A DNA stretch of 64,000 nucleotides from Anatilimnocola floriformis (lineage in GTDB: Bacteria; Planctomycetota; Planctomycetia; Pirellulales; Pirellulaceae): positions 3,906,001 to 3,970,000 of the forward strand of contig NZ_JAMLFW010000001.1 of NCBI RefSeq assembly GCF_024256385.1, given 5' to 3'. The notes under the pieces were generated by a model. The model did no database searches and was not told the DNA's origin. It saw only the letters and a list, made by a program, of their open reading frames with translations. The first letter of the stretch is position 1. Every line of letters starts with the position of its first letter. Below are positions 60,049 through 64,000 of this stretch, one piece after another. A program made the translations under genes and the position numbers.

Positions 60049-61038
60049 TTAGCGCTTTCGCAACTCGCGCAGCACATCAATCGTCCCCTGCATGTCGGCG
60101 GGAATCGGCGCGACGAATTCCATCAGCTCTTTGCTGATCGGGTGTCTGATCTGAATTCGATGAGCGTGCAACGCTTGCCGGCCGAGGACGATTTCCTGGT
60201 CGGTCAGGTCGCCGCTGAATTCGCCCCGTTTGATATCGGCGCGGCCGCCGTAAAGGCGGTCGCAGAGGACTGGGTGGCCGATGTGGGAGAGGTGGACGCG
60301 GATCTGGTGCGTGCGGCCGGTTTTCGGCAGCATCTTGACGATGGCGAATCCGCGGAAGCGCTCCTGCACTTCGTAGAAGGTTTGCGCTTCGCGGCTCGTT
60401 TCATGGCCGCTGCGGATGGCCATTTTTTCGCGCTGATAAGGATGAATGCCGATCGGCTTGTCGATCATGTCGCGATCGCGGTCGGGAGCGCCGACGGTGA
60501 TGGCGATGTATTCCTTGGCCGTGGTGCGATCGGCGAACTGTTCGGCGAGGGCGAAGTGGCAGGTGTCGTTTTTCGCCACCACCATCACGCCGCTCGTGTC
60601 GCGGTCGAGCCGATGGACGATGCCGGGCCGGTGGGCGCCGCCGGCCGTGCTGAGCTGATCGAAATGAAAGGCCAGCGCGCTCGTCAGCGTGCCGGACCAA
60701 TGGCCGCGCGAGGGATGCACGACCATGGCTGGCGGCTTGTTGATGGCCAGCAGTTGATCGTCCTCGAAGAGGATGTGCAGCGGAATGTTCTCGGGGTTCG
60801 GTCCCGCGGTGGGCATCTGCGGCAGAAAGATCGAGACGCGATTGCCCGTATGCAGCCGATGCGAAACCTTTGTCCCGGCATTGTTCACGCGCACACCGCC
60901 GGCGCCGATAATTCGCCGCAGTTGCATGCGGCTGTATTTCGGAAACACCTTGGCTAGATAAGCATCGAGCCGCGCCCCGCTGTCCACTTCGTCGACGACA
61001 AGTTCTTGCGGCGTTTCATTCAGCTCGTCTGCGGACAT
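60049..61038 (-). CDS. rluD: RluD-type 23S rRNA pseudouridine synthase
   Basis: 329 residues from ATG 61038 (MSADELNE); the longer frame to 61104 is less likely. An S4 RNA-binding domain is at ~15-80 ('RLDAYLAKVFPKYSRMQLRRIIGAGGVRVN'; landmarks RLD--LA, SR---R-I--G-V-VN). The RluA-family catalytic signature is 'GIVHRLDRDTSGVMVVAK' (catalytic Asp ~152), followed by 'KTGRTHQIRVHLSHIGHPV'. RluD makes pseudouridines in helix 69 of 23S rRNA; RluA/C/D cannot be fully separated by sequence here. A palindromic repeat lies between it and the YfgM-like gene. Confidence 0.9.
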   Translation of the reverse strand: MSADELNETPQELVVDEVDSGARLDAYLAKVFPKYSRMQLRRIIGAGGVRVNNAGTKVSHRLHTGNRVSIFLPQMPTAGPNPENIPLHILFEDDQLLAINKPPAMVVHPSRGHWSGTLTSALAFHFDQLSTAGGAHRPGIVHRLDRDTSGVMVVAKNDTCHFALAEQFADRTTAKEYIAITVGAPDRDRDMIDKPIGIHPYQREKMAIRSGHETSREAQTFYEVQERFRGFAIVKMLPKTGRTHQIRVHLSHIGHPVLCDRLYGGRADIKRGEFSGDLTDQEIVLGRQALHAHRIQIRHPISKELMEFVAPIPADMQGTIDVLRELRKR

Positions 61039-61056
61039 GGTTGGACAATTCAACTC

Positions 61057-61080
61057 GTAGGACGGACAAGTGATCCGTCC
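61057..61080. repeat. Short hairpin element of the GTAGGACGGAC family, copy 2
   Basis: GGACGGA (61060-61066) pairs with TCCGTCC (61074-61080), opened by GTAG as in the copy at 25022-25041. A second small palindrome (GACC/GGTC, 61114-61124) lies just beyond. Together they fill the gap between the rluD start and the next gene's stop. Confidence 0.55.
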
Positions 61081-61128
61081 AAATGCGACACAAAATCCAA
61101 CCATTCAAAGACTGACCAGTGGTCCGCC

Positions 61129-62831: not shown

Positions 62832-62860
62832 TTGACCATTTGGCAGGGCGATAGTAGAGT
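62832..62860 (+). promoter_or_regulatory. Promoter of the leu leader
   Basis: TTGACC (62832-62837) and TAGAGT (62855-62860) are 17 bp apart, matching the sigma-70 -35 (5 of 6) and -10 (4 of 6). Transcription would start near 62867, the A of the leader ORF start codon. Confidence 0.5.
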
Positions 62861-62866
62861 CAAATC

Positions 62867-62938
62867 ATGCAACCAACCGCCCTACTTCTAGACAACCTTC
62901 TCGCGCTTGCCACGGGCAAGTGTATCGGGGTGCGGTAG
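62867..62938 (+). CDS. leuL: leu leader peptide (attenuation)
   Basis: ATG 62867 to TAG 62936-62938, 23 codons. Six of the first 14 codons are Leu (residues 6, 7, 8, 11, 12, 14: CTA CTT CTA, CTT CTC, CTT), and none is the CTG codon that this GC-rich genome mostly uses. An intrinsic terminator begins 43 nt after the stop, and leuA lies downstream. This is the standard layout of ribosome-mediated attenuation: when leucyl-tRNA is short, the ribosome stalls in the Leu codons and the terminator does not form. The ATG is at the predicted transcription start, so translation may be leaderless. The ORF and terminator are seen directly; the mechanism is inferred from the pattern. Confidence 0.75.
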   Translation: MQPTALLLDNLLALATGKCIGVR

Positions 62939-62981
62939 CGCAGCTAAACGAAGCGCAACGCGAATATCAGTGGCAACTTCA

Positions 62982-63010
62982 CCCCGCAGCCTGAACCTGC
63001 GGGGTTTTTT
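62982..63010 (+). terminator. Attenuator terminator upstream of leuA
   Basis: CCCCGCAG (62982-62989) pairs with CTGCGGGG (62997-63004) over a 7-nt loop, then TTTTTT (63005-63010). No gene precedes it on this strand except the leader ORF, so its likely job is to stop leuA transcription. CACCCC at 62980-62985 could instead pair with GGGGTG (62927-62932, inside the leader ORF), and TTGCCAC (62907-62913) with GTGGCAA (62970-62976): plausible antiterminator contacts. Confidence 0.8.
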
Positions 63011-63231
63011 GTTGTCTTGGTCTGTGACTTTGTCGGCGAGTTGGCAGTGGTGATCTAGTGAGCAATTCCTTAACAAACAGTGAAACGTGCGAGCCCAGCG
63101 GTTGCCGCGGGCGGCTCCTCCTTGTCGGGCCGGCGTGAGGCCGGCAGCAGTCCACGACTGCTCTGCAAGGAGTATGCTGAACGTATCAACATTGTTTGTG
63201 ATTGTGAGCTTTGTCTCACCAGAGGAATGCT
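63011..63231. other. leuA leader after the terminator
   Basis: 221 bp between terminator and leuA start, with two hairpins: GCCGGC/GCCGGC (63129-63145) and the perfect AGCAGTC/GACTGCT (63146-63162). No gene is seen. The leuA ribosome site AGAGGA is at 63221-63226. Confidence 0.45.
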
Positions 63232-64000
63232 ATGTCTCTCCGGACCATCAAAATCTTTGACACGACGCTGCGCGACGGCGAGCAATCGCCGGGCTGCAGC
63301 ATGAACCTGCAAGAAAAACTGGAACTGGCCGCCGCCCTCGTCGAACTCGGCGTCGACATTATCGAAGCCGGTTTTCCCATTGCTTCGCCCGGCGACTTCG
63401 AGTCGGTGCGCGAAATCGCGAAGTCGATCAGCGGCGCCACGATCTGCGGCCTCGCTCGTTGCAACGATCAGGATATCGATCGCGCTTGGGAAGCCGTGAA
63501 GGGCGCCGCCGACAAGCGGATTCATATCTTCCTGGCCACCAGCGCCATTCATCGCGAGTTCAAACTCAAGATGACGCGGGAAGAGATCATTCAGCGCGCG
63601 ATCAACGGTGTGACGCGTGGCAAAAAAGTGTGCGACGACATCGAGTTCTCACCTGAAGACGCGGCGCGTACCGAACGCGATTTTCTCTGCCAGGTGGTCG
63701 AAGCCGCCATCAATGCCGGCGCGACGACGGTCAATATTCCTGACACGGTTGGCTATGCCACACCGCAGGAATATGGCAGCGTCATCGCCATGCTGAAGAA
63801 CCGCGTGCCGAACATCGACAAGGCAGTGATCAGCACGCACTGCCACAACGATCTTGGCCTGGCCGTGGCGAATAGCCTGGCTGCGGTCGAGAACGGCGCT
63901 GGCCAGATCGAATGCACCATCAACGGCATCGGCGAGCGGGCGGGCAATTGCTCGCTCGAGGAAGTCGTCATGGCGTTGAAGACGCGCGAGGACTACTACC
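63232..64000 (+). CDS. leuA: 2-isopropylmalate synthase (3' truncated by window)
   Basis: 256 codons are visible; the gene runs past the window end. LeuA condenses acetyl-CoA and 2-oxoisovalerate, the first committed step of leucine synthesis. The TIM-barrel signature '[14 protein letters not shown]' (residues ~8-21, with the metal Asp and catalytic Arg) is followed by '[13 protein letters not shown]', '[12 protein letters not shown]' and '[16 protein letters not shown]' (the HxH metal site, ~202-217), then '[14 protein letters not shown]'. The C-terminal feedback domain is outside the window. Start ATG 63232 has AGAGGA 5 nt upstream. Regulation by the attenuator at 62832-63010 is inferred. 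Confidence 0.93.

Follow-up and report, generated by a model that had tools for sequence, protein, structure and literature searches.

Does the short Leu-rich ORF that lies with a terminator upstream of leuA in Anatilimnocola floriformis act as an attenuator of leuA, and, if so, is this arrangement a peculiarity of one genome or a trait of the planctomycetes? The window (the whole stretch of 64,000 nucleotides analysed here) corresponds to positions 3906001-3970000 of the contig G000:C1, and its 3' end falls within leuA.

Leader, terminator and leuA in the window

The features of the locus, all on the plus strand, are as follows.

62832..62837, +: -35 box TTGACC (promoter scan; TTGAC is also found upstream of many relatives' leaders)
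62855..62860, +: -10 box TAGAGT (spacer of 17 nt; 6 nt from the end of the box to the ATG)
62867..62938, +: putative leader peptide ORF, 23 codons with six Leu and the stop UAG, plausibly leaderless (ORF call and comparison)
62903..62923, +: intra-ORF hairpin, 62903-62911 with 62915-62923 (folds; role unproven)
62925..62935, +: predicted antiterminator 5' strand, in the last codons preceding UAG (folds and swap test)
62984..62994, +: predicted antiterminator 3' strand, covering part of the terminator 5' arm and the loop (folds; alternative register 62927-62932 with 62980-62985)
62981..63010, +: intrinsic terminator, stem 62981-62989/62997-63005 followed by a T tract (terminator scan, fold, covariation among relatives)
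63232..64000, +: leuA, 2-isopropylmalate synthase, running beyond the window (NCBIfam matches)

The ORF encodes the peptide MQPTALLLDNLLALATGKCIGVR, followed by the stop codon. Its Leu codons, at positions 6, 7, 8, 11, 12 and 14, are CTA, CTT, CTA, CTT, CTC and CTT. The terminator has nine pairs, a loop of seven nucleotides and T's after it; on its own it is not above chance (two terminators in a 2-kb stretch, against a shuffle mean of 1.8). The 2-kb stretch has three promoter-like sites, where shuffles average 0.4; TTGACC-17-TAGAGT overlaps with another of them, TTGGCA-17-AATCAT (62840-62868). A sequence-only reading of this DNA had noted that a promoter, a Leu-rich ORF and a terminator line up before leuA. 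This was confirmed for 62832-63010, and the combination far exceeds what chance would give. The leader stretch is single-copy in its own genome, as judged by a DNA search.

The leuA gene starts at the ATG at 63232, with AGAGGA at 63221-63226. The best NCBIfam matches of its first 263 residues were NF002086 (451 bits) and TIGR00973 (440 bits). These scores are under the whole-protein cut-offs (532 and 599, respectively) because just 263 residues fall inside the window.

The same reading had stated that the Leu codons of the ORF are never the CTG favoured by the genome. There is indeed no CTG among the six, but CTC, which is used once, is likewise common: Leu codons in the 27 large ORFs of the window are CTG 36.5%, CTC 31.9%, CTT 6.9% and CTA 3.2%. 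The chance of finding zero CTG among six Leu codons is about 0.07 when this is taken alone.

Two further observations were made in the window. A palindrome, GCCGGC-N5-GCCGGC, lies at 63129-63145 between the terminator and leuA, and several relatives have, by eye, other palindromes in the same interval; a REP-like repeat at 63129-63145 was ruled out, the palindrome being single-copy in the genome. ARAGORN calls a 92-nt tRNA-Lys(ctt) at 60093-60184, antisense to the minus-strand ORF 60049-61104, which we take to encode an RluA-type pseudouridine synthase. The tRNA is probably a false call.

Conservation in Planctomycetota and a leader at DAHP synthase

In the comparison with relatives, 197 regions upstream of leuA were collected from three sets. 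The order-level set held 58 regions from 57 of 60 genomes; the genome of the window is included, G040 is represented twice, and G017, G018 and G035 are without a usable leuA start. The named set consisted of the best 80 of 588 GTDB loci, 12 of which bear non-planctomycete titles; L115, titled Peribacteraceae and without a leader, was counted among the planctomycete-titled loci. The phylum draw comprised 60 of 66 further genomes with leuA, without second copies, of which 59 were usable and one (L196) lacked the LeuA motif. Six regions represent the same contig in two sets. In G040 (G040:C241:17604-19633, L025), one contig carries two equally scoring leuA matches in opposite orientation, perhaps an assembly artefact. 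Each region was searched by a script for a terminator and an ORF ending 10-75 nt upstream of it, and the ORF was scored for Leu.

An ORF with a terminator at a score of at least 2 was found in 104 of the 197 real regions, 2 of 985 dinucleotide shuffles and 0 of 197 reverse complements. At a score of at least 3, the count was 92 of 197, with none among the shuffles and reverse complements. After removal of duplicates, 101 of 191 regions scored at least 2 and 89 at least 3. The upstream regions of the relatives, proposed earlier as the place to check the attenuation model, thus kept the Leu-rich ORF alongside the terminator: both were present (score at least 2) in 47/58 order-level regions. Among the remaining 11, three (L017, L024 and L033) show a weaker ORF that contains Leu, together with a terminator. 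Among the best 80 of the 588 named loci, 41/68 planctomycete-titled and 0/12 non-planctomycete-titled ones scored at least 2, with leaders in Rhodopirellula rubra, Stieleria tagensis, Roseiconus nitratireducens, Thalassoglobus neptunius, Schlesneria and Fuerstiella. The phylum draw gave 16/59, made up of 9/9 in a single additional family from the same class and 7/50 elsewhere. Typical leader peptides of relatives are MHQNLLLPLLLLLLADDRP and MSTNNLLLQLDLLLLLALDKP; the leader in the window scores low for the family, at 2.4.

A terminator kept after loss of the Leu ORF had been named as evidence against attenuation. Strong terminators without the ORF were just 4/49 in the order-level set, 8/49 in the named set (best 80 of 588) and, farther out, 14/30 in the phylum draw. 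The tie between ORF and terminator, as traced in these upstream sequences, is tight within the order and looser at greater distance.

A covariance model built from the leuA leaders placed the window element first in its own genome (E = 1.5e-4). The second match (E = 3.2e-4) lies upstream of the gene for 3-deoxy-7-phosphoheptulonate (DAHP) synthase. Five other matches (L202-L206), from the 150 of 1038 first-look candidates that were scored, showed, by eye, no attenuator-like ORF before an amino-acid gene. The second element is located as follows.

Around G000:C2:629827-629926 (L201:1420-1600): candidate DAHP synthase leader, an aromatic-rich ORF with a terminator (covariance model)

Its ORF encodes MSKLVRNYRWRFYFTGFIPGAAEIA, followed by the stop, and is preceded by the promoter TTGAAA-16-GATAAT and 7 nt before the ATG. 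DAHP synthase regions were then taken from the 30 best-matching of 54 genomes with the gene, own genome included. At minimum scores of 0, 1, 2 and 3, a Phe/Tyr/Trp-rich ORF with a terminator was found in 28, 27, 23 and 20 of the 30 regions, and in 1, 0, 0 and 0 of 150 shuffles. Slightly different weights, with the gene start of L213 misplaced, gave 28, 26, 21 and 20 of 30, against 4, 1, 0 and 0 of 300 shuffles. When the same regions were scored for His as a control, 13/30 were found at score 0, two at 1 and one at 2, which indicates that score 0 is weak evidence. All three aromatic residues are present in 22/28 DAHP leaders.

In the phylum draw for DAHP synthase, 5 of 25 loci were dropped for want of the motif; 8/20 readable loci, one of which had 67 bases, scored at least 2, against 0/100 shuffles. 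Three loci from one distant family (L336-L338, in G108, G180 and G129), outside the class, have very aromatic DAHP leaders such as MNIPGNNLKYCYWVFYYFKYYYKRGGY. Aromatic leaders outside the class may point to an old origin. The same script applied to hisG, ilvB and trpE of 25 relatives (26 loci each) gave no leader with a score of at least 1, a result that doubles as a control of the method. With Leu or Val scoring, ORFs of score 0 numbered 1 of 26 at hisG, and 1 and 1 of 26 at ilvB; loci with any terminator were 4, 5 and 8 of 26 at hisG, ilvB and trpE, respectively.

Alternative pairings of the leader RNA

A MAFFT alignment was made of 71 leuA leaders. Near the stop codon its consensus reads GGCC-n-UAG-GG, and the terminator appears in it as AACCCCGAGGCC-loop-GCCTCGGGGTTTTTT. 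The stop codon is UAG in 66/100 leaders and in 9/27 genes of the window, a comparison of a phylum with one genome. In the terminator stem, 10/12 pairs have changes on both sides, a level reached by 7/500 shuffles. The share of terminator cells that are paired is 89.6%, versus 78.2% in shuffles, and 0/500 shuffles were as high. The covariation expected of an attenuator was therefore seen for the terminator stem. For the antiterminator it failed in fixed columns: the pairs showed no gain over shuffles (62.9% versus 63.1%). In our view the cause is a register that shifts from one genome to the next; sliding by a single column gives a similar score.

The antiterminator did emerge from a register-free swap test, in which 26-nt segments of 100 leaders (four of 104 were dropped as duplicates or N-containing) were paired with the terminator arm of the same leader and with arms from other genomes. 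The best segment comprises the 12 nt up to the end of the stop codon and the 14 nt that follow (99 leaders). At this offset the native energy was -18.7 kcal/mol versus -14.5 kcal/mol for the swapped arms (z = -13.7), and 0/2000 GC-matched swaps reached the native value. The effect is confined to segments around the stop codon, as segments starting 50 to 100 nt upstream gave z values of -1.4 to +1.6; at offset -120 no duplex was found and the figure there is meaningless. The best antiterminator duplex spans the stop codon in 78/100 leaders. Since the segment spanning the stop pairs far better with its own terminator arm than with those of other genomes, it marks the antiterminator. In the DAHP leaders the corresponding strand lies within the ORF; there the best fit to the own terminator arm came from segments whose first base is 40 to 26 nt upstream of where the stop codon ends (z = -6.9 to -3.9).

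Folds of the window RNA agree with this location. When cut before the terminator 3' arm, the RNA folds 62925-62935 on 62984-62994. Ribosomes were represented by masks with an assumed footprint of 31 nt. The terminator arm was held upstream with a probability of 0.67-0.94 when the mask was at Leu codons 11-14, and of 0.11-0.33 when it was at the stop. With no ribosome, or with the mask at codons 6-8, the value was 0.60-0.73, which predicts read-through when the leader is not translated. In the complete leader at equilibrium, the terminator was preferred under all five mask settings (0.98-0.99). The decision must therefore occur during transcription. Across the leaders, a footprint of the assumed size at the stop overlaps the antiterminator strand in 99/100; the strand is free in 89% when the A site holds the median Leu codon.

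Two pairings had been suggested for an antiterminator. The pairing of 62927-62932 with 62980-62985 appears in both printed structures with the mask on Leu codons 12 and 14, where it holds the arm; without a ribosome, however, 62925-62935 with 62984-62994 is better. The pairing of 62907-62913 with 62970-62976 is complementary but absent from every printed fold. The overall stability of the leader RNA is unremarkable against shuffles (z = -1.45 for the whole and -0.35 when cut before the terminator 3' arm). A conserved hairpin inside the ORF was given up, being only weakly favoured across the leuA leaders (mean fold z of -0.24 and -0.17), and a bulged-G (loop E) step around the UAG was dropped, the internal loop varying by eye.

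Proposed attenuation, its alternatives and related systems

We consider that ribosome-mediated transcription attenuation of leuA by the leucine supply is very probably the best explanation of these sequence features. RNA polymerase would start near 62867 and a ribosome would translate the leader ORF. When Leu-tRNA is short, the ribosome would stall on the Leu codons, leaving free the segment before and around the stop; this segment could then pair with the terminator 5' arm, and the polymerase would read through into leuA. When leucine is plentiful, the ribosome would reach the UAG and cover the segment, the terminator would form, and transcription would stop near 63010. The locus has what is used to recognise an attenuator: a leader ORF rich in the pathway product, an intrinsic terminator between ORF and gene, a predicted antiterminator that excludes it, and a geometry that tells a ribosome at the stop from a stalled one. 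What the sequence and the comparison show is the leader ORF and the terminator, the conservation of the two together, and the match between antiterminator strand and terminator arm; from these we infer the stalling, the leucine response, where the transcript starts, and that translation begins at a 5'-terminal AUG.

There are other interpretations of this arrangement. The ORF might code for a hydrophobic microprotein with a function of its own, made from a short transcript that simply ends at the terminator, with leuA served by a separate promoter. Short Leu-rich peptides can be membrane microproteins, and the 221 nt between terminator and leuA leave room for another promoter. The leader peptides, however, vary widely beyond Leu. 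Their residues are 38.5% Leu (partly a selection effect), 2.5% Ile, 1.6% Val and 1.4% Phe, and the rarity of the last three means that leucine, not hydrophobicity, is the conserved feature. In 100 leaders (four of 104 removed as duplicates), CTA makes up 22.5% of Leu codons versus 2.0% in the 5' part of leuA at the same loci, about eleven times as much, and CTG 21.2% versus 38.5%. For sensing the charging of a tRNA, rare codons at the control positions are well suited. The C-terminal codons moreover follow base pairing with the terminator arm, and the model gave no further Leu leader in the genome of the window, where 150 of 1038 first-look candidates were scored. We regard the microprotein as quite improbable. 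We give still less credence to a protein or metabolite that binds the leader RNA, as in riboswitch-like or T-box-like control, with the ORF incidental. Competition between terminator and antiterminator is common to such systems, and the sole RNA-family match is anti-hemB, at a sub-threshold 21.3 bits (cut-off 49.5). Against this, 15 leader loci matched no Rfam family at the gathering threshold, and the alignment has no conserved ligand-like core besides the two pairing segments. The DAHP element swaps Leu for Phe/Tyr/Trp codons, which is explained by codon reading and not by ligand binding.

An alternative that leaves attenuation intact is a transcript that begins farther upstream, so that a 5' UTR precedes the ATG. 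The leaderless start claimed for the window fits the spacing of its best promoter, 6 nt from -10 box to ATG; in G001, a relative from the same genus, this distance is 58 nt. A good promoter call was obtained for 83 of the 100 leuA leaders: the spacing was 6-9 nt in 15, 10 nt in one and 17-131 nt in 66, and in one the ORF start overlaps the call, so that 68/83 are without the short spacing. The cluster at 6-9 nt (15/83 leuA leaders, and 22/28 DAHP leaders with exactly 6 nt in 15) argues against a 5' UTR, as does the rarity of SD-like sites 4-10 nt before the ATG in the short-spacing group (1/16, versus 19/84 in the others). On these predicted promoters, leaderless-type spacing appears strongly conserved in the DAHP leaders. 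Leaderless translation of the window leader is plausible, yet it is no fixed trait of leuA leaders; a start upstream seems a possible but rather unlikely account of the window.

Taking attenuation as the preferred reading, we lean slightly toward a wider proposal. Planctomycetota may hold old, phylum-wide attenuators operated by the ribosome at the first committed enzyme of each of two pathways, one on leuA with Leu codons and one on DAHP synthase with a single Phe/Tyr/Trp leader sensing three amino acids; many, above all those of DAHP synthase, would load ribosomes on a 5'-terminal AUG, and the leuA type would carry its stop codon within the antiterminator strand. In our judgement, such a conserved set would extend attenuation to a phylum with little-known gene regulation. 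It would require transcription and translation to be closely coupled in these bacteria, and the leuA and DAHP leaders would offer a natural series of probably leaderless leaders for testing direct initiation on a 5'-AUG.

The enteric leu operon attenuator (Leu_leader in Rfam) has a leader with Leu codons and mutually exclusive terminator and antiterminator before leuA. The planctomycete leader shares the Leu-codon ORF and the exclusive hairpins, but it has no Rfam match and its antiterminator strand lies around the stop.

A planctomycete case would have been new to the sequence-only reading, and this stands so far as the open-licence papers searched go, in which we found no description of a planctomycete attenuator or leaderless start, although one may be in print elsewhere; the Rfam result for the 15 loci agrees. 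In the excerpt of a study that counts short leader genes of Planctomycetes by distance, leuA is unmentioned (PMC4833913). The LEU element of Actinobacteria also places an ORF with a Leu run ahead of leuA; it is described as a pseudoknot or an alternative hairpin, in which the base stem joins the Leu run to the Shine-Dalgarno box of leuA (PMC1262725); the planctomycete leader has an intrinsic terminator instead, and is of a different design. The trpL leader ORF of Sinorhizobium meliloti begins on an AUG at the 5' end of the transcript (PMC7298713), a likeness to the attenuator ORF proposed here, though trpL concerns Trp and a proteobacterium. A Leu-rich attenuator peptide is likewise described for branched-chain amino-acid synthesis genes in Staphylococcus aureus, a Firmicute (PMC5794164). 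Closest in targets is Corynebacterium glutamicum, for which leader-peptide attenuators were proposed at leuA and aroF (PMC4046766, PMC3890552). Its leuA leader has four consecutive Leu codons, and that of aroF, encoding DAHP synthase, has Phe-Tyr-Phe (PMC4046766). The two target genes are the same, whereas the planctomycete leaders belong to another phylum, have up to ten Leu, or Phe/Tyr/Trp runs, occur in many genera and had their antiterminator pairing tested. The kind of attenuator is thus known; what appears to be new is the planctomycete lineage and the conserved DAHP leader of leaderless type.
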